A stretch of 64,000 nucleotides of DNA from positions 38,075 through 102,074 of IMG/VR virus record IMGVR_UViG_3300021142_000013. One strand, given 5' to 3'. The position numbers and the translations under genes were made by a program. Below the pieces are notes generated by a model, which did no database searches, was not told the DNA's origin, and was given only the letters and a program-made list of their open reading frames with translations. Shown in pieces: positions 3,901-61,263 of the stretch (the stretch's first letter is position 1; every line of letters starts with the position of its first letter). This DNA is from a virus.

Positions 3901-6900
3901 GATTTTGCAGAACAGATTGTAAAAGATAATGAAGCTAGACCTGAAGCTAAAAAACCTTCTTTATCAACATTATTTTTGAGAGGAACATATAATGAAAAAG
4001 ATGGTTCTCCAATACATAAACGTAGAGAAGCTTTTGCTGCAAAAATTGATAATTTACCTAATCACAATAATTTAAGATTAATTTTAATAACTCCTAACAC
4101 AGAAGAAGCATTTGGTCTTAAAGGATTAAGTGATGCTTTTTTAGATAATTTAGGGGAAGTTATTAATAAGAATGACCCTGAACAAGGTCTTGTAATGCGT
4201 GCGATGGTTGAACAAGATGCCGATGGTTCTTTGTATTATGTAAACAATAAAGGAGAACGTATTGGTAAAGCAGGTGAAGAAATACCTAATATATTAGAAA
4301 AAGGTATTTTTGATACCATGCCTACTACCGATTTATCGTGGAGAAGTAAACCAGATGAAAAACGCTTTCATTATCAACAAGGACAAACGGAAGAAGATGC
4401 TTTAGCTTATCAAAAAGCATGGAAAGCTAAACGCAAGCAAATATTTAAATGGAAAGGTGATAAAGAAAATCTTTTAGGTAATACTGAAGTTTATGAATTT
4501 TTAACTTCAAGAGGTATCGCGCAATTAAACGATTTGACTCCTACAGGAAAAGTAGATGAGAACGGAAAAGAAATTAATAAAAGAGCTAGAAATGCTGTAG
4601 GAGGAACTCTTATAGATGAAAGTAAAATAGGAAATGAAGGATTAATTGAAATATCTACTACAGGTAAAATCTCTCATAATGGAGAGGATATATCTGTTTC
4701 TAAAGGTGTTCCATTATTCCATAACGGTTCTACTCTAGAATATCTTTCCAATAGAAAATTAATAGATAAAGAAATATCTAATATTTATAATATTTTAAAG
4801 TATTCCGCAAAAGAAGGCAAATTTAATCAGGATGTTATAGATTATCTACAAGGAGTTATTAACTTTACAACTACCGAAACAGGTAAATCTATTTCAAGGA
4901 ACCAAGTATATCTTAAAGATGGTTTCTTATATTTTGGTAATAATGAAAACGGTGTACCCTTTACAGAAAAAGGTATTAAACAAAATAGTAAACTTATCGA
5001 AGAATACTTGGGTAAGATGTATAATGGTGTAAACAATAGATATCTTAAAGAAAATCGTCCGTTTACAGAAATATCTATCAACGATAAAGGAGAATTAGAA
5101 TCTTTTACTTGGAAATCTTATCAACATTATTTACTGTCTGATAAATATATATCTGATGACGCAGAACATAATTTACATAATAAATCTAGAGGAGGTGTAG
5201 ATTCTATTCCACTTACTACTCCAATTAGGAAAGTTGTGGAAGATGTTCCTAACGATAGTAATTTTATATATAAATCTTTTATAATTCAAAATCAACAAGA
5301 AGGTGCGGAATTTCTTAAAATAGAAAAAAAGAAAGAACAACCTGAACCTATAAAAGAAACTAAACCAAAAGATACTAAGGAAACGCCTATAAAATTCGAT
5401 ACTACTACTAAGTATAAATTCAAATCTTCTACAGGAGAAGATATTGCTTATACTGCAGGTATTGATGAAAATGGTAAAGCTCAAATAAATTGGGTAGAAG
5501 AAGATCAATTAGGTCTTAGACGAGCTGTTGCAAAAATATTAACTAATAAAGGAAAGGACTTAAATGATCCTGAAAGTCAATATGAAGCAGTAAATCAATT
5601 AGAAAAAGAAGTTACGGATTATCTTAATGAAAGGTTAGATAAAAAGCGTGCGACAACAGTAAAAGATGAAAAAAAGATAGATGAAAAGGCTAAAGAAATA
5701 AAAAAAGAAAAGAAACCTAATAGTAAGAAAAAGCCTAATCCTGGTTTTGGAGAAGAACAATATCGTATAGTAGATAATTTTGATTATGTAAAAGCCGATT
5801 TAAATAAAGAAGAAAAATGGATGAAAGAGAACTTGTCAACAGTTCCTTTTAATCGTTTAGAAAATATTATACGTACTACTAATGGAGGTACTGCTTTTGG
5901 TGTATTTAAAGATGCTGCTATTCATATATGGGAAAATGCTGAAGTAGGTACAACCTATCACGAGGCTTTTCACTCTGTATGGGATATGTTTACAACTTTA
6001 CCTGAAAGAGAAACTCTTTTAAAAGAATTTAATAGCAGAGAAGGTAGTTTTATTGATAGAGAAACTGGTGAAACTGTTGATTATAAAAATGCAGACGAAC
6101 ATCAGATTTTAGAAAAAATGGCGGAAGAATTCCGTAATCATGTTATTACTAATAATAAACCTCAAGGAAATGCTTTAACACGTTTTTTTAGAGATTTGGT
6201 TAACATGATTAAAAAATTAATATCTCCAGAATCTAAAACTATTGATCAATTATTTAAGAGAATAAATTCAGGTTATTATAATACAGGTACTTCAGTATCA
6301 GAAACTTTTGATAGAGCAGATTCTAAATATAGAGTTCCTGGTATAAGTGCGTCTAAAAGTTATCATCTAGTAAAAGATATTACTTCTCGTATTATTTCCA
6401 GATTATTTGCAACAGATGAAGGATTAAATACACTTGTTAATTTTGAAAATCCAAAAGATACTCCTTCTAAAGTATTTGAAGATATTTATAATGAGCGTGC
6501 AACTTATTATACAGATAACGATACCGAAGGAACTATTCCTGACCAGTTTGAAAACGGTTTAATAAATGAAGATCAATTCAAATCGTATCAAAATTTCTGG
6601 GCTAATGTAGATAAAGGATGGGATACTGTAAAAGCAGATATTGTAGATTATCTTAAAACATTAGGTATTGATACTAAATTCTCTGGAGAATATGTATCAT
6701 TAGCAAATGAAGAGTCTTATATTGAGAATAACTCTGAGAATGCAGATAGCGCAGATTATGACAAATCTGATAGACAAGAACAGTATCTTAAAGACGAATT
6801 TAAATTAGATGCTAAACGCTCTGCAGGAGTTCCTATTAAACTTTTATTATCTACTTTATTTGAAGCTAGTTTTCAAAAAGAAGCACAACCTATAAATGGA

Positions 6901-9900
6901 TTAATGCCTGTTTCAGATGTTATTGATCCTAATACAGGTTTGAGAAAGATGTTACCGTATGCTAAAACATTTAATACGTTAATGTCTACATTGTATAACT
7001 TAAATACTCCTAGTGAAAAACAAGAAAAACTTAAAGAACTTGCACAAAAAGACCCTAATTATGTACGTCTTTATAATCGTCTTGGTTTTAATAAACCTGC
7101 TGATCAAATAAATGCTGCAGAATTAAAACTTCAAACAATATTCTTCAGTGTTTTCTCTAAACAGAGACCTGAAACAATGACTACTATAAAAACTGAAAAT
7201 GGTAAAGAAACTTCTACATTTTCTTCTAACACAGTAGCTAATACAGGTAGATTGTTAGAATCTTGGATGACTAATCTTGTAGAAGAAGGTTTGAAATCTG
7301 GTTTAGTTGAAGAAAGAGAAGGTGTTCCTACATTTAAAGCAAGTAAACTTAGAGATGCCTCATTAAAAACAAATGCAGATAAATCTAAATTCTTATCTTC
7401 TTTTGGGATTCAGTTTGATCCTTCTTTAATGGAAAAGCTTTCTGCTAAAGATCAAAAAGATTTATCTAAAGCAATTAATGGATTAAAAGAAGGTATTATA
7501 AAAAATCCTATAATTGTAGATGTTAATAAAAAGACATTAGGCGAACAATCTAATCTAGAGCGTATTGCTGAAATTTTAACAAGAGCTAGTGGTGAAGGAG
7601 AAGAAAGTACTATATTTGGTCTTAAAAGCGAGCAGCGTCAAACATATTTAAATAATAATACAGTAAGTAACTGGTCTAACGATTTAAATAATGTTAAGAC
7701 TAAAGAAGAATTATTTAACAAACTTCCTTTTTTAGAAAACGATCCTTATAGACAAGATTCTTGGTATTTAAGTAATTTGTTTAATGAAGATGGTACTCGC
7801 AAAGCTATTAAATTAGAAACTAAATACACTCAAGGGATAAATGATCAATCAGATAATAGAAATCCCAGAAAGCCTATAGGAGTATTACCATATGCAGAAC
7901 GTGTAGTACATCAGATAAATCAAGAACTCAATAAAAATTATTATATACTTACTCCAGGAGATTCTAAAACAGAATGGATGTTAAGTATGGAACATATTAT
8001 TCCATATTCTAATTTCAAAGGTGCTTTAGTAAACGATAAAGTATATAATTTATTTAATAAATATTATAAAACTGAAAAAGAAATTGCTACTGAAGCAGAT
8101 GGTAAAATTAATGAATCTTATAAATCTTTAACATATCCTATCAACGGTGATTACAATACTGAAGAATTAGGTAAGGAAAAACTAACTAAATTCGTTACTG
8201 ATAGAGTAGAAGCTACCAAAAAGACGTTAATGGATTTTGGCTTTATTCAGGATACAGGTAAAGGATTTAAGTTAAAAGGCTTTGATAAGAATTTTATGAA
8301 AGCAAACGATCTTAATAAAAATTTATCTGCTCAAGAAGTACATGATTTTATTAAGTTTCGTGAAATTAATTATATGCTTAACAACGTTGAACAAACAAAA
8401 CTATTATTTGGAGATATTGTTAGTAAAGCAAAAGATTGGGAAAAACGTGTAAAATCATTTCTATCTCCAAGACAATCTTCTTATTATGGAAATGATGCAT
8501 ACAATAATATTTTAAACGACGAATATAATAAAGTAGGAGATACTCCTTTGAAACAAGGTGATCCTGGGTACTGGAATCATAAAGATAATATGAAGACAGC
8601 TACTATCAAAGATGTATATTCTACAGAAGATAGAGAGTATAACGGTAATCGTAAAAGTATCGTAAATGATGCTTCTTTACCTAAAGAAATTAGAGAAGCT
8701 TATGAGAAAAATAATGTTGCGGATGCTGGTGCATGGGTAAATGCGACTGCTTATAGAGAAATACTGACAAAAAGTCAGCAAACATTCACTAAAGAACAAG
8801 AACAACAGTATCAGTATGAATTAGCAAAAGATAGAATGCTGATAGATAAAGATAGTAAAGCAGGTATTTTACCTAAATCATTATCTTGGCAGTATTCTTC
8901 TGAAGAATTAAGAAAAGCAGATGAAGAACTTTTATCTAAAGGAGATCCTAAATCTGGAAAATTTGCAATTCTTAAAACAGTAGGTACTGGTGTAGATGCA
9001 GAAGGAAATACTTTCTTGCATAAAAAATCTATTGCCCCACAATTCTATTCTATGTTTAGAAAAGAAGAAAATGGTAAAGTGTCTATTGGAAATGGTGCAT
9101 TAGCTTATCTTAAAGATCTTCGTCAAGGAGTTTCTTATCACATTGCAGAAAGTGGTGTAAAAATAGGTGCTAAAGAAAAAGTAGATTTTTACAATAAAGA
9201 AGGACAACCTAATATAGAACAGTTTAATCTTAATCAAATATCTTCAATTCCTTTTAGATATTATGGTATACAGGTAGAAACACAAGGCTCTAAAGAAAAA
9301 CAAACTTTAGGTAGTCAGGTATCTAAGCTAGTTAAAATGAACTTTTTTAATGGTGGCTTACCTATTGATATTCAGGATAAATATAATTTAGATACATGGA
9401 ATGGTTTATCTGAAAAAGAAAAATTAGATAATTCTCCTGTATATAAAGCAATTAAAAGATATTCTGATGTGTATAGTGCGATGCATGATCACGGATACAA
9501 TATCTTTTTAAATAAATTAGGTATTGAGGATTTAGGTGATAGATTTGCTATACCTGATAAAAGTAAAGTACTTGCATTATTACAAAACGAACTTCTTCGT
9601 AGAGAAGCTCCTGAAAATATAAAAGATGCAATTAAACTTAATGATCAGGGAGAATTTGTAACTGCTTTTGAAGCATTACCTAATTATAAACAAATTAAAG
9701 ATATATTCTCTTCTCAAATAGAGAAGAATATTGCAAAGCCTAAAATGAATGGTGGTCCTAAAATCATGTTATCAAATCTTGGATTTGAAGTAGGTGATAG
9801 GAAAATAACTCAAAAAATGGTTAAAGGTAATCCTGTTTATGTATCTTCAGGATTAGAGTTTTATACTGCAGAATATGATAATGCAGGTAAAAGAACAAAA

Positions 9901-44615: not shown

Positions 44616-46369
44616 CTAAAACAATCTTGTAACTCCTTTATAAGTAAAAGAGTACTTTTTATCTTTTGTGAGATCGTGATTACTTACATAATCTCCTTCT
44701 TTAAAATCTCTTGCAAATATTCTGCATTTTTCTTCATAGTATGCGATTAAATATTCACTTAAAAACGAAGCTGTCTTATCTCCTTTAAAGAATTCTCTAT
44801 AATGATTTAGGACTCCTGTAAATGTTATTTTTTCAGGAGAAGTTATTATTTTTTGTTGATTATATTCTGTATATTTAATAATAGCTAAACACATAAATAA
44901 CCAATTAATCATCTTTTGAGGATTTAAAGTAGCTGAAGATAACCTTGATTCAGCAGTACCTCTTTCAGAAAATATCATGTTCTGATAATTCCACCAATAA
45001 TCATTGTGTTAACATATAGGCTTTTTATCCTACATTTCTATATATTTCTATATAGTTCAGACTATATCTTCACCTAAATAGGTGTTGGATGCTCGTGGTA
45101 ATTTCATAACCGTTCTGGTCGTTTATTACTAGTCGTTGAACCTGCTATCTATTCCTAGATAGGTCGGCTGCTGATTGGCATAGATTTCTCCTTAGCGTCC
45201 CAGCAATTCTTCCAATTTATAGTCGGCAGTATTGGAGTTTACCGACTTTTTCTATTCCATTTTTCTCTGATAGGATGCTTTTTTCTTTGACGATTGTAAT
45301 TTATATCTGCAGGAGCACCGTCAGATAAAAACTTAAATATATCTTCATATACTTCATTGACATATCCTTTATATCCTTCTTTAGATTTATCCTGAAGAGG
45401 GTATATATGTAAGCGATCAAGTTTTTGACAATAATTCTTATGTTTAATACCGTCAGGATTTGTCTTATAATAAGGAAACATTTTAAATACATCATCTTGT
45501 ATCTGATGGCAAAGAATATAAAGAGCTACCATATAACCTCTGTCTAAAGGAATATTTCCAAAATGTATATGATAAGAACAATTAATGTCTACATTACATC
45601 TTTTAGATAATTCCTCTGCAATAGTTACAATGTTTTGCAAACATTTTACTCCTCCCATAGGTACTGTAACCCATTCTGCGCCTCCTATAGAACCATCTCT
45701 ACAGGATACTACTCCGTGACGATATTGAAAATTATTACTACAGTTTCCTGCAGAAGTTTCAATTTCAATACCTATTGTAGTATCTCCAAGAATTTTTCCG
45801 TAAGGAATTACTTCTCGACTAATAGATAAAGGATAATTCTTATATGTTTTTTTCTTTTCTGCAAATTCTTCTACATTATCTTCAATATTGTATCCCTTAT
45901 GTTTGAAGTCTTTTTCCGCACGAATTGATTGAAATTTTTTAATATCCGCTTCAGACCATTCATCTTTATCATACCAAACACAATTTGAAATTTCTTCAAT
46001 ATAATTGTTTTCCAGAAGAATTTCTTTATTTATAGCAGTAAAGTTACCAAATTTCTTACTACGTCCTGCTACATTATTATAAACATTTGGAGTAAAGAAT
46101 TCAAAGATAGGTGTTTTATCTTTGAATCCTATAACTCCTTTTATTAATTGAGGGTTGTCTTGAATAACTTTCCATTCACGTAATTCATAGTCAAAAGCTA
46201 TTTTTCCTGAACATTTACGATACCACTTTCCGTTTATTTCAAAACAATCTTTATCAATTACATGATATGCATCTAATATATGTTTACAATTTATACGATA
46301 TTCCTTTTCACCAGTAACTGTTTTTACTACTTTTAATTTCAAGTTAGGATTATCACTATATAAAATCAT
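44616..46369 (-). CDS. Amidoligase (amidoligase_2 type) split by a group I intron
   Basis: The gene reads as two exons, 46369-45241 and 45001-44616, giving 504 residues after removal of 45240-45002. Exon 1 has GDTTIGIEIETSAGNCS, GGAEWVTVPMGG and NCSYHIHFGNIPLD, the ATP- and metal-site motifs of the glutamine-synthetase-like amidoligases. Exon 2 supplies the last core motif, SERGTAESRLSSATLNPQKM. Splicing restores KSR-Y-YWWNYQNM across Tyr377, whose codon is divided t|at. The family joins a carboxylate to an amine using ATP. It overlaps the class II amidotransferase gene (ATGA) and closes the amidoligase island. Unspliced mRNA gives a 376-residue truncated protein. Confidence 0.85.
45002..45240 (-). 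ncRNA. Group I intron (239 bases) in the amidoligase gene
   Basis: All four core elements are visible on the minus strand: P (AATTGCTGGGA), Q (AATCAGCAGCC), R (GGTTCAACGACTAG, 45142-45129) and S (GAAGATATAGTCTGAAC, 45071-45055). P1 forms between exon AGTCGGT plus one intron A and the intron segment TGCCGACT. It has the required U-G pair at the 5' splice site after base 45241. The intron ends in G at 45002. The exons then join in frame. It has no internal reading frame. Confidence 0.9.
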
Positions 46370-57684: not shown

Positions 57685-59253
57685 TTAACATAGTTTTTCT
57701 ATATTCCTTCGTACTTGTGATAAAGTAGTTTGATTGTAAAACGCACCATTTTCATATATAACTTGCAATATTCCTTTATCTTCTTCTTCAGGAGTACATT
57801 GAGTATATACATTGAAATTATGATCCACAGCAACCATTCCTTTCAAAGATTTCTTAGTACCATCATCCGTTATAGGATCTTTATATATGTCATACGCAAT
57901 TCGTTCTACTTCATATTCATAATCTACAGGAATTCCTTGTGCATTTTTTACAACTCTTGCAAAACCACCTTCTTTTTTTTGAAGGATTTCAAACCAAGAG
58001 CCCTTAACAGCAAATCCAAAAGTATCGCGAGTATTCATTTGATAAGTAAAAGAACCTACACCGAGAACAATATTAGTACAAGCAAATCCTTTAGCTTCTA
58101 AACGTCTATAAATCTCCATTTGTCTATCTAGAGTAATAGAATCACCATAAATAGCTCCTATATGAGAATCAAGTACTTTATAACCTTGTTTGTTAACTGT
58201 ACCACCAAACATATCCCAAAGTAATTCAATTACACCCTTTTCTTTAGAATTTGATTTGATTTTAGAATGTTCATTTTTCCATTCTTCTTTATTATCCCAT
58301 ATAACTTCACCACAAATTATATCTACAGGATCACCAGAATCAGGACGTATTACTAATTTACCATCACGAGCCATTATGGCTTCTTTATTAGCTGGTAAAT
58401 ATTCGGTAATGAGTTTCCATAAATCAAATGTATCTGAAACAATTGATAATATACCTATTGGAAATTCTTTTAACCAGTCAGCAATCATTTGTTGTTCACC
58501 TACAGTAAATATTTTTGTTGTGCTTACTGAGTGTTCAGACGCATTGACAGAATTGATAGAAACCTCATTCTCAGGCTCGTTATAGAAGTATCTAGCTCCT
58601 GGTATAACTATAAGTGTATCAGAACCTCTAAACGAAGATGCGTGACCTAATCCACTAGCTAGCATATCAAAAGGAGATAATCCTCTAGCACTAAAATCAT
58701 GAGCTAAATATGGAAGAAGTCCAATATTCTTCTCATCTGTTTTATTTATCCATTCTTTTAGATTTCTACGATATTGTAAAGCAATAGTTGCAGAAGTAGA
58801 AGATTTCCAAGATAATGCAGAAATAATTGTTTCTAGGTATAATGTTAACCAAGCATATCCATCTATTGTATTAATAAATGTCATATGTGGAACATTTGCA
58901 GAAGTTTCTATACCTTCTGGTAAAGCTTTAATTTTAATAGGTAAATAACCTAATTTATGGAGTTTGATAAAATGATCTCCTTTAAATTCCATATCAAGAT
59001 ACATAGACATATCTCTAATAAAACTAGCTGCTTCTTCTTGTGTTTTATCAAAGAAATTCTCTTTAAATTCGTCATGTAACCATTTAATCATAAGCTGATG
59101 ACCAAATGAAAGAATTTTAGTTATTCCTTTAGGTGCATGTTTTACACTTCTCGGTATCAATGTTCCATATAAACGAACTGTTCCAGGAGCTAACATTTTT
59201 TTGTGTCCCACTTTATATCCATCTGAATAGTAGAGACTTAATGGTTTAAACAT
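57685..59253 (-). CDS. Nicotinamide (phospho)ribosyltransferase-like enzyme (NAMPT/Namat family)
   Basis: The 522-residue protein matches the NAMPT fold throughout: LYYSDGYKVGHKKM, AHDFSARGLSPFD, GLGHASSFRGSDTLIV (base-binding Asp), NASEHSVSTT with catalytic His241, IVSDTFDLWKLIT, KLVIRPDSGDPVDI and YGDSITLDRQM. NAMPT joins nicotinamide to PRPP to give NMN. The related phage Namat of NARP1 joins nicotinamide to pyrophosphorylated ADP-ribose to give NAD+ directly. The PRPP-synthetase-like partner is two genes upstream. Which substrate is used cannot be read by eye; see the finding. Confidence 0.9.
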   Translation of the reverse strand: MFKPLSLYYSDGYKVGHKKMLAPGTVRLYGTLIPRSVKHAPKGITKILSFGHQLMIKWLHDEFKENFFDKTQEEAASFIRDMSMYLDMEFKGDHFIKLHKLGYLPIKIKALPEGIETSANVPHMTFINTIDGYAWLTLYLETIISALSWKSSTSATIALQYRRNLKEWINKTDEKNIGLLPYLAHDFSARGLSPFDMLASGLGHASSFRGSDTLIVIPGARYFYNEPENEVSINSVNASEHSVSTTKIFTVGEQQMIADWLKEFPIGILSIVSDTFDLWKLITEYLPANKEAIMARDGKLVIRPDSGDPVDIICGEVIWDNKEEWKNEHSKIKSNSKEKGVIELLWDMFGGTVNKQGYKVLDSHIGAIYGDSITLDRQMEIYRRLEAKGFACTNIVLGVGSFTYQMNTRDTFGFAVKGSWFEILQKKEGGFARVVKNAQGIPVDYEYEVERIAYDIYKDPITDDGTKKSLKGMVAVDHNFNVYTQCTPEEEDKGILQVIYENGAFYNQTTLSQVRRNIEKLC

Positions 59254-59263
59254 ATTAATAATT

Positions 59264-59683
59264 TTAACCTATTTCATCTAGGTGTGTTTGTGAACGAATA
59301 AATGCTCTTTGTCGATACATCGCTTCTTGTAAAGTATCTAATGCTTGATCTAGACCTGCACGATCATCTAGAAATATATTAGCATATATTTTATTTTGAT
59401 TACCATATGGTAAATCGATAGGATTTTGATTAATTGTATCTATATGTAAATCTTTAGAATCACAATATTTACGAATTTCTTCATAACGATTTTGTTTACA
59501 AGCAGTAAAAATTACAATATATGCACCAACTCTTCTTGCTTCTTTTAATAGTTCAATAACTTTATCACATTTTTGTTGATTTGTTAACTTCCAAGGACAA
59601 ATTGTATCATCAAAATCAACTGCGACGATTATCTTACCATGAAGATTCCATTCTTCAACTAATCTTTTTATATAATCGTTCAT
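59264..59683 (-). CDS. HAD-family phosphatase
   Basis: The 139-residue protein has KIIVAVDFDDTICPW (motif I, Asp nucleophile), AYIVIFTACKQNR (motif II) and ANIFLDDRAGL (motif IV). There is almost no cap domain, as in small HAD hydrolases that act on nucleotides or sugar phosphates. It is encoded between the two NAD-pathway genes with a four-base overlap upstream, so its substrate may be a pathway intermediate or a by-product such as a pyridine mononucleotide. Confidence 0.75.
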   Translation of the reverse strand: MNDYIKRLVEEWNLHGKIIVAVDFDDTICPWKLTNQQKCDKVIELLKEARRVGAYIVIFTACKQNRYEEIRKYCDSKDLHIDTINQNPIDLPYGNQNKIYANIFLDDRAGLDQALDTLQEAMYRQRAFIRSQTHLDEIG

Positions 59684-60528
59684 ATATTTATAATTTTAAC
59701 GTAATCTTTAATTCCTGAAAATTGTTCAAGTATTTTTATGTGTTTTTCATCACTATAAAAAGAATTTGTAGTGTAAACATTTTTAAAATACTCTTTTAAT
59801 TCACTAAAACCATTATGGAAGATACCATGTGATACAACGAGATATAAATTACCACAATTCAAAAGTTTTAGTCTCTTTGCAATTTCTATAAAAGTTCTAC
59901 CACCATCACAAATATCATCAATAATGTAGACATCTTTGTTCTGTAGATCTACTATTGTAGTATCTACTTTAGTTTCAATGATTTTTCCAGTAGATAACTC
60001 ACGTATTTTTTGACATTTAATTAAATCTCCAGTAAATTTTAGATATTTACATAGTTCATATATCTTTTTTTCACTACCTGCATCAGGTGAACATATACAA
60101 TAGTTAGTTCTTGTTTTTAGAATGCTCTCTACAAAAGTATAATTTGTTAGACAAGTTAAATTATTTATACAAGCATCTGCTAAAACTTCGTTATGTACAT
60201 CGTAACATATAATTTCTTCTAGATGTAACGAATTCAGAATAGGAGCAATTACATCTTTTAGATATTTAGTTCCTCCATTTTGAAATTGTCTATCAGAACG
60301 AGCTCCTAGTAGATACGGAATGTATAGAATGATATTTGCTCTATTATTTAGATTTCTAATCGCTGTAACAGCACAAATTATTAATTCTAAATGTTGAAAA
60401 TTGTTAAAAGAAGAAACAATTTGATAATGTTTTTCATAAATATTAATCACTACATTTTGTTGTCCATCTGGATAAGAAAATTTCTTGAAAAATAAAGAAT
60501 CCTCTTTTCGTAAATCTATTGTTATCAT
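59680..60528 (-). CDS. PRPP synthetase-like enzyme (Prs or ADP-ribose pyrophosphokinase)
   Basis: The 282-residue protein is shorter than the roughly 315-residue bacterial Prs. It has LYIPYLLGARSDRQFQNGG (ATP/metal region), ICYDVHNEVL, CSPDAGSEKKIYE, the flexible loop LIKCQKIRELSTGKI, and the PRPP loop VYIIDDICDGGRTF. Prs moves pyrophosphate from ATP to ribose 5-phosphate. In the NARP1 system a homologue acts on ADP-ribose instead. The pairing with a NAMPT-like gene in one operon supports an NAD-related role. Confidence 0.85.
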   Translation of the reverse strand: MITIDLRKEDSLFFKKFSYPDGQQNVVINIYEKHYQIVSSFNNFQHLELIICAVTAIRNLNNRANIILYIPYLLGARSDRQFQNGGTKYLKDVIAPILNSLHLEEIICYDVHNEVLADACINNLTCLTNYTFVESILKTRTNYCICSPDAGSEKKIYELCKYLKFTGDLIKCQKIRELSTGKIIETKVDTTIVDLQNKDVYIIDDICDGGRTFIEIAKRLKLLNCGNLYLVVSHGIFHNGFSELKEYFKNVYTTNSFYSDEKHIKILEQFSGIKDYVKIINI

Positions 60529-60539
60529 AATATTTTTAT

Positions 60540-61019
60540 TTATTCATTCCAATCATACATCATATCGTATTTAAGTACATGTGTTTTATACAAAATAGAT
60601 AGTGTTTTTAATAAATTATTTTTCAATGCACCTTTTTGAATAGTACTCCAATAATGAGAATCTAAAAAAGGTATTGTATTATGCCTAAAATGCGAAATGT
60701 ATACATGTAATTTCCTACCATTATAATCTACTTGGAATCTTTCATATAAACCTTCATGAAAATCTAATGTTCTCAACTGTTGATATGTCATTTCGTATAT
60801 GACTCCTTCTACAGATTCGTTTGCATTTTCTCTGATATTTGCAAAAGTTGGTACTTTTACTCCGCAATCAAATATTAACTCATATCCAGGAATAACATGT
60901 GTTGCAATTTGTTCACAAAAACCTACTCTTACATCAAGACGATATTTATGAAGATTAGAACCATATGCAAAATATAGAACTTTTTGATTCAATTGTTTTT
61001 GAGTGAACTTCTTTTTCAT
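60540..61019 (-). CDS. Gamma-glutamyl cyclotransferase-like enzyme, second copy
   Basis: From the ATG at 61019 this 159-residue protein has VLYFAYGSNLHKYRLD (the YGSN loop of the GGCT group), VEGVIYEMT and TLDFHEGLYERF with the catalytic Glu. It belongs to a different branch from the enzyme at 52050 (YGTLR type). It probably cleaves gamma-glutamyl amines to 5-oxoproline. The start at 61019 leaves 7 bases after the upstream stop; a start at 61052 would overlap it. Confidence 0.75.
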   Translation of the reverse strand: MKKKFTQKQLNQKVLYFAYGSNLHKYRLDVRVGFCEQIATHVIPGYELIFDCGVKVPTFANIRENANESVEGVIYEMTYQQLRTLDFHEGLYERFQVDYNGRKLHVYISHFRHNTIPFLDSHYWSTIQKGALKNNLLKTLSILYKTHVLKYDMMYDWNE

Positions 61020-61026
61020 ATAGTTT

Positions 61027-61263
61027 TTAAGTTGTTTCAGGATATTTCTCATAGAATTCTAATATAGCTCTATATATTGTTTGTTGAAATGTTTCTTTTG
61101 GTTTTTGCTCTACATATACAAGTTGTCTTTCTTCGTAAGCATCTATACTTTCTCTAATATGTATTCCAGAAGTTTTAGGCTTTAAAATTTCAACTTCATC
61201 ATTATACCAAATATGTACTTCATACTTTTTACCAATTTTATTTAATTCTTCTAGTATATCCAT
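61027..61263 (-). CDS. Hypothetical protein, 78 residues
   Basis: I do not recognise this protein. It has KKYEVHIWYNDEVEIL strands and a helical end (FQQTIYRAILEFYEKYPETT). The ATG follows the next small gene by five bases. The end helix resembles that of small phage single-domain proteins, but no family is certain. Confidence 0.5.
   Translation of the reverse strand: MDILEELNKIGKKYEVHIWYNDEVEILKPKTSGIHIRESIDAYEERQLVYVEQKPKETFQQTIYRAILEFYEKYPETT

Follow-up and report, generated by a model that had tools for sequence, protein, structure and literature searches.

Enzymes that destroy NAD+ (NADases), such as TIR, SIR2 and SEFIR effectors, are common bacterial anti-phage defences, and the NARP1 pathway is a broad answer to them. 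NARP1 is known from phages (PMC12774641, PMC11559045, PMC13232231) and from some bacteria (PMC12774641). In Bacillus phage SPbetaL1 it comprises an ADP-ribose pyrophosphate synthetase (Adps) and a nicotinamide ADP-ribose transferase (Namat), encoded by directly adjacent genes (PMC12774641). Vibrio phage ICP1 carries a corresponding Prs-like and NAPRT-like pair, NrsAB, that counters the SIR2-HerA defence Nezha in vivo (PMC11559045), and in mycobacteriophage DyoEdafos the gene for RyDEP is inserted in the NARP1 operon and has been shown to feed the pathway with ADP-ribose (ADPR) (PMC13232231). Here we examined a 64,000-nucleotide stretch of viral DNA (the window; positions 38075-102074 of the 102,074-base IMG/VR virus record IMGVR_UViG_3300021142_000013), in which three open frames on the minus strand encode, in order, a Prs-like protein, a small HAD phosphatase and a NAMPT-like protein:

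59680-60528, minus strand: Adps-like gene (putative ADP-ribose pyrophosphate synthetase; Prs relative), 282 amino acids, first of the three.
59264-59683, minus strand: gene for a small, capless putative HAD phosphatase, 139 amino acids, middle of the three.
57685-59253, minus strand: Namat-like gene (putative nicotinamide ADP-ribose transferase; NAMPT relative), 522 amino acids.

The Adps-like and HAD genes overlap by 4 nucleotides (ATGA) and a gap of 10 nucleotides separates the HAD gene from the Namat-like gene, so that a single operon is likely, as a first-pass annotation of the same letters had described it, with identical coordinates. Chance open frames are excluded by the gene families, the tight spacing and the conserved linkage described below. 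We conclude that the operon very probably encodes the NARP1 pathway, with the HAD protein most likely an optional third enzyme. By analogy with the characterized systems (PMC12774641, PMC11559045), the Adps-like protein would use ATP to convert the ADPR left by defensive NAD+ cleavage to ADPR pyrophosphate (ADPR-PP) and AMP, and the Namat-like protein would join nicotinamide to ADPR-PP in one step, giving NAD+ and pyrophosphate (PPi) with no need for a nicotinamide mononucleotide adenylyltransferase (NMNAT); the operon would thus restore NAD+ after host defences had cleaved it. As in SPbetaL1, both homologues lie in one operon in the same order, but the SPbetaL1 operon has no HAD gene. The ICP1 pair carries the same Adps and Namat signatures as the window, and no HAD gene was found in the stretch of ICP1 that was read, whereas the nearest relatives of ICP1 in our tree, Achelous and PhAER-3, have one between the two genes. 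The DyoEdafos operon shares with the window the insertion of a third gene; its product, however, combines a glycosidase with a ryanodine-receptor domain and has no relation to HAD phosphatases.

The NAMPT-like protein matches the Pfam NAPRTase family (8e-29) and PHROG 448 (E 3e-148). Its best PDB sequence matches (351 bits) are 9W5X and 9W5W, structures of the SPbetaL1 Namat with nicotinamide and NAD+ (PMC12774641), followed at 343 bits and about 40% identity by HdNadV (9KE8, 9KEO), a canonical NadV/NAMPT of the same overall fold that was crystallised with nicotinamide mononucleotide (NMN). The predicted monomer (mean pLDDT 75) gives a Z score of 38.6 to 9W5X and of about 33 to human NAMPT. 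Because HdNadV scores nearly the same, we did not accept a good overall match to the Namat crystal structures as proof of function; what discriminates is the clamp, which HdNadV lacks despite being nearly as similar. In Namat this clamp grips the adenine of ADPR-PP; its consensus is GSX(T/S)X(Q/N)X(N/V)TRD with aromatic residues at positions 3 and 7, a motif described as a tendency, and the accompanying clamp loop presents Arg, or Lys or Tyr followed by a stacking residue (PMC12774641). The window clamp, GSFTYQMNTRD (residues 400-410), fits the consensus at 10 of 11 positions, with Phe402 at position 3 and the Thr, Gln and Asn of Namat at positions 4, 6 and 8. Its loop has Lys38-His39 where SPbetaL1 has Arg40, and relatives have Lys-Tyr or Lys-His. 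The corresponding region of HdNadV, GAQTYQRNTRD, carries Gln at position 3 and Arg at position 7, neither of them aromatic, and Glu-Gln in the loop, with no Lys/Arg-aromatic pair; the NAMPTs of phage K571, Serratia phage BF and Mucilaginibacter have GG or GK and no aromatic residue at the matching place. The residue corresponding to Phe402 is Gln, Ala or Gly in HdNadV and in the Mucilaginibacter and phage K571 proteins.

The catalytic core is kept in full (window F187, R190, D212, R303, D305, D11 and Y13, corresponding to SPbetaL1 Phe189, Arg192, Asp215, Arg306, Asp308, Asp13' and Tyr15'), and the clamp and nicotinamide-site residues of the SPbetaL1 protein are largely retained. In a tree of 69 proteins, made by a quick method and with several long branches, one branch (value 99) parts three NAMPTs from the rest and leaves the window protein among the Namats, where it joins that of Tenacibaculum phage PTm1 (96). 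By its sequence, then, the NAMPT-like protein is a Namat.

Two points weigh against this reading. Position 7 of the window clamp is Met406, where most Namats have Tyr or Phe (Tyr396 in SPbetaL1), and adenine binding might be weaker for it; Met also occupies this position in 15 of 62 Namats of HAD-linked loci. In addition, Namat can use phosphoribosyl pyrophosphate (PRPP) in vitro (PMC12774641). Both would suit ordinary nicotinamide salvage, in which the Prs-like protein makes PRPP from ribose 5-phosphate, the NAMPT-like protein makes NMN and the NMNAT that the host certainly has completes NAD+, as would the close match to the NMN-forming HdNadV. We nevertheless consider ordinary salvage unlikely, since the Phe at position 3, the Lys-His loop and the Thr-Gln-Asn pattern are those of Namat where HdNadV has Gln and Arg, and since the partner protein has Adps motifs and no TGGT phosphate loop like that of E. 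coli Prs.

That partner matches PHROG 619, ribose-phosphate pyrophosphokinase (E 2.7e-56), and solved Prs structures are only distant relatives (best E 1.8e-10). Its phosphate-binding loop, DDICDGGRTF, is identical in the Adps-like protein of Felixounavirus VpaE1, whereas E. coli Prs has DDMIDTGGTL, the first Thr of which is changed in all aligned Adps-type proteins. A second stretch, KIRELSTGKI, fits the motif KxR(D/N/E)xxTG(K/E/D), which the SPbetaL1, mycobacteriophage, ICP1 and Felixounavirus proteins also have and E. coli Prs does not. The Prs-like protein is thus Adps-like, bearing a signature shared with proven or NARP1-linked Adps proteins, and the loop and motif changes may create space for the ADP moiety of ADPR. 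Its length, which had been singled out as short, is not unusual: it has 282 residues, compared with 272 (819 nucleotides) in SPbetaL1 Adps and 315 in E. coli Prs.

The first-pass annotation had preferred NARP1 over ordinary salvage because no NMNAT gene was recognised in the window, adding that one elsewhere in the genome would count against NARP1. We found no match to PF01467 (the NMNAT family) anywhere in the 102,074-base record, inside or outside the window, using a search that was positive in 14 of 14 control genomes. The absence is real, and we set it aside as the main argument, since it is weak evidence when every bacterial host has an NMNAT of its own and when the record is probably a fragment of a phage genome. 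The preference itself holds on other grounds: the Namat clamp, the Adps motifs and the split in the tree support NARP1 as fitting far better than ordinary salvage. The probable incompleteness of the record also leaves room for the NARP2 pathway (NAMPT plus NMNAT), with the NMNAT gene on the missing part. The clamp is of Namat type and its partner of Adps type, however, and Serratia phage BF, which has a neighbouring cytidyltransferase-family gene, has a clamp region of NAMPT type; NARP2 is highly improbable here.

The middle gene has a weak match in Pfam (E 0.08). The AlphaFold model of its product (pLDDT 88.6) gives a Z score of 10.6 to the HAD-fold protein BT_0820 (2OBB), at 21% identity, and seven residues are invariant among 16 relatives (D23, D25, T27, K98, D106, D107 and R108), including the DxD, Lys and DD catalytic positions. 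A DxD motif, a Lys and an acidic pair on a predicted HAD fold mark it as a putative phosphatase of the HAD superfamily. The NCBIfam model for BT0820-family HAD phosphatases (NF046079), the closest sequence profile as 2OBB is the closest fold, matches the window protein at 5e-6 with 26.8 bits, far under the family cut-off of 165; all 16 aligned relatives match the same model with E 0.5 or better, and their alignment matches the family profile at E 1.2e-8. The window HAD is therefore related to the BT0820 family and is not a member of it. No function for BT_0820 was found in the literature searched. Reading a substrate from the fold was likewise abandoned, as only BT_0820 stands clear; other phosphatases score Z 5-7, where common arrangements also score.

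The HAD gene repeatedly accompanies NARP1 genes, both in bacterial chromosomes and across many unrelated phages. Counts were made with hidden Markov models built for this analysis (E 1e-4, flanks of 4-6 kb), and short contigs lower them. A tblastn search of annotated phages with the window HAD alone returned 33 records. Among the groups of these that were examined, the HAD gene accompanies Adps and Namat genes in the Crassvirales phages DAC15, cr126_1 and cr111_1, in Phass-1, in Vibrio phage VPT02 and in Aeromonas phage PhAER-3; it accompanies Namat alone in Tenacibaculum phage PTm1 and Adps in Prevotella phage Lak-A2, and a NAMPT-like gene is found at a distance of about 4 kb in record LR756501 (735 kb). 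Burkholderia phage FLC8 is the only HAD-bearing phage with neither gene among the groups examined from this search. Vibrio phage Achelous has a divergent HAD copy between its Adps and Namat genes. Vibrio and Aeromonas phages repeatedly show the order Adps-HAD-Namat, and Crassvirales the order Namat-HAD-Adps.

A search of IMG/VR with an alignment of HAD proteins gave 80 loci, with both Adps and Namat genes within 5 kb in 62 and at least one of them in 71. After clustering at 90% identity, 50 of 59 HAD clusters had at least one NARP1 gene, all on the same strand, in eight arrangements, of which Adps-HAD-Namat was the commonest (33 clusters). Two loci counted as having Adps only (L070 and L101) have Namat elsewhere on the contig, as does L113, one of the nine with neither. 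For comparison, any Namat or NAMPT occurs in 1914 of 50,697 phage records (3.8%); the control for linkage rests on this baseline, because searches with the neighbouring gamma-glutamyl cyclotransferase-like and downstream DnaB-like genes found no relatives in IMG/VR. Some of the collected loci have unusual gene structures. In L132 (331-2727; contig IMGVR_UViG_3300036893_000013) Namat lies in two pieces inside one frame of 799 amino acids, which looks like an intein or in-frame insert, and Namat is similarly split in L032 and L088. In L018 a 26-residue copy of the HAD start (4647-4724) lies about 0.8 kb before the full gene (5480-5929), as if a gene had been inserted there and the HAD start duplicated.

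Among bacterial genomes, both genes lie within 6 kb in 26 of 42 loci found from the HAD gene, some of which, on contigs of metagenome-assembled genomes (MAGs), may be phage. The partner is of Namat type in 23 of the 26 (Flavobacteriia, Saprospiraceae, Cohnella, Paenibacillus and others), and canonical NAMPT with Prs in three from Mucilaginibacter. Next to the cluster in those Winogradskyella and Mucilaginibacter loci that were inspected is a relative of NrtR, a regulator that responds to ADPR: a Winogradskyella chromosome has the order NrtR-Namat-HAD-Adps (L160, 3734-7111), and one Mucilaginibacter locus (L156, 1478-6342) has NrtR, a NadM-Nudix-like protein, NAMPT, Prs and HAD. In Mucilaginibacter kameinonensis (L161, 3660-5339), SIR2-like and TPR-like frames, named by eye, lie between Prs and HAD; the first of these frames has no Pfam match.

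Several observations weigh against the HAD protein as an integral third enzyme. The HAD alignment used for IMG/VR was built mostly from NARP1-linked HADs, so the linkage rate there is an upper estimate; the tblastn survey is free of this bias. The reverse search with a Namat alignment found Adps within 5 kb in 53 of 65 clusters and HAD in 22, leaving about two thirds of NARP1 clusters (43 of 65) with no HAD gene, and we therefore regard the HAD as optional. NARP1 moreover works with its two enzymes alone, both in vitro and in E. coli tests (PMC12774641), and in Mucilaginibacter the HAD gene adjoins a canonical NAMPT/Prs pair, so that its substrate may be a product common to both settings and not an ADPR phosphate. 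Macro proteins were seen in 16 of the 43 HAD-less clusters versus 2 of the 22 with HAD, a weak inverse trend (Fisher p 0.02 before correction for six tests). This trend was too weak for us to keep a strict replacement of HAD by macro domains as an explanation. In favour of a third enzyme, NARP1 loci without HAD (L183-L257) often have, between Adps and Namat, genes for macro, NADAR, nucleoside-deoxyribosyltransferase-like, metallophosphatase, Thg1 and YqeY proteins, the first three of which belong to families acting on ADP-ribose; the macro proteins weakly match ADPR-1''-phosphate phosphatase.

The HAD could also be a neighbour that is often present simply because it is passed on with the operon, or because it acts in a different process, for example the repair of RNA ends. 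Its fold resembles the phosphatase domain of T4 polynucleotide kinase as well (Z about 6.5), and some HAD relatives (L108, L121-L123) lie far from any NAD gene. Against this, the linkage survives rearrangement into eight arrangements while always keeping to one strand, spans Bacteroidota, Vibrio and Aeromonas phages as well as bacterial chromosomes beside NrtR, and requires 12 gains or losses of HAD on the tree; we find simple neighbourhood rather unlikely.

If the HAD is indeed a NARP1 enzyme, our leading guess, to which we give somewhat less than an even chance, is that it strips the phosphate from phosphorylated ADPR (2'-phospho-ADPR derived from NADP+ cleavage, or ADPR-1''-phosphate), so that ADPR can re-enter the pathway. 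We favour this guess by analogy with RyDEP, which feeds NARP1 with ADPR, and with the enzymes of ADP-ribose-acting families encoded between Adps and Namat in loci without HAD. A less probable alternative is that the HAD hydrolyses PPi, which Namat, like NAMPT, NadD and NadE, releases, and so draws a reversible reaction in the direction of NAD+. PPi is a product in each of these settings of the HAD gene: NARP1, the Mucilaginibacter NAMPT-Prs pair, NadD-NadE of a Clostridia MAG and NadE on one phage contig. Pyrophosphatase is, however, already abundant in cells, NadD-NadE without NARP1 was seen at one locus only, and the HAD pyrophosphatase BT2127 has a cap domain where the window HAD has none. 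In that Clostridia locus (L147, 1742-4073), NadD and NadE come after HAD, and the stretch yielded no NARP1 gene. Taken more broadly, the chances seem to us evenly balanced that a dedicated third enzyme is a common part of NARP1, namely a capless HAD that would return a phosphorylated by-product (2'-phospho-ADPR, ADPR-1''-phosphate or PPi), in a module serving both as phage counter-defence and as an NrtR-linked chromosomal operon for NAD+ salvage.

Two further loci, L006 (Phass-1; 4861-9299) and L180 (3159-13752), bring together a nicotinamidase-like gene, Adps, a Namat homologue, NadE and HAD, the nicotinamidase and NadE of L180 having been named by eye. Their Namat homologues have Ala in place of the nicotinamide-binding Asp (D215 in SPbetaL1), and are the only 2 of 133 aligned Namat/NAMPT proteins to do so. 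These loci possibly encode a nicotinate version of NARP1, in which nicotinate and ADPR-PP would give nicotinate adenine dinucleotide and then NAD+.

Directly upstream of the operon lies one further gene on the same strand, which we regard as context outside the pathway:

60540-61052, minus strand: gamma-glutamyl cyclotransferase-like gene (Pfam GGACT, 1.1e-9).

It was considered as a pathway member and rejected for want of recurrent linkage, as Leptolyngbya phage Lbo-JY46 was the sole case among the first 32 loci. In that phage (L002; 2843-3346 and 11395-11784), a gamma-glutamyl cyclotransferase-like gene lies near NARP1. Its Namat is 63% identical to the window protein, and Lbo-JY46 is also the only match of the window head protein, at 24% identity. 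Downstream of the triad are a replisome-organiser-like gene and a DnaB-like gene. The terminase, portal and head genes present belong to poorly known PHROGs, and the window has no tRNA and no RNA family at gathering score. Start sites are preceded by AT-rich sequence with no obvious Shine-Dalgarno motif, which would suggest a Bacteroidota host. A nucleotide search for phage relatives returned only one intron-like match: 45 nucleotides (45036-45080) are 97.8% identical to an annotated group I intron of several Staphylococcus phages of the 812/Kayvirus kind, and Rfam has no match there at gathering score.

In conclusion, NARP1 itself was already known, and as far as can be told, the new part is its wide and rearranged linkage to a HAD gene; no mention of a HAD partner was found in the NARP1 literature searched, a search that did not include the founding NARP1 paper. 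The linkage suggests that a third enzyme is a frequent part of NARP1. If a third gene is indeed conserved, the two-enzyme scheme would fall short for many phages; the reason may be that NADP+ too is destroyed by NADases, or that a harmful by-product arises in the pathway; the authors of the ICP1 study could not clone both genes together (PMC11559045). The chromosomal NARP1 operons beside the ADPR sensor NrtR, in turn, raise the question of what role NARP1 may have in bacteria when no phage is present.

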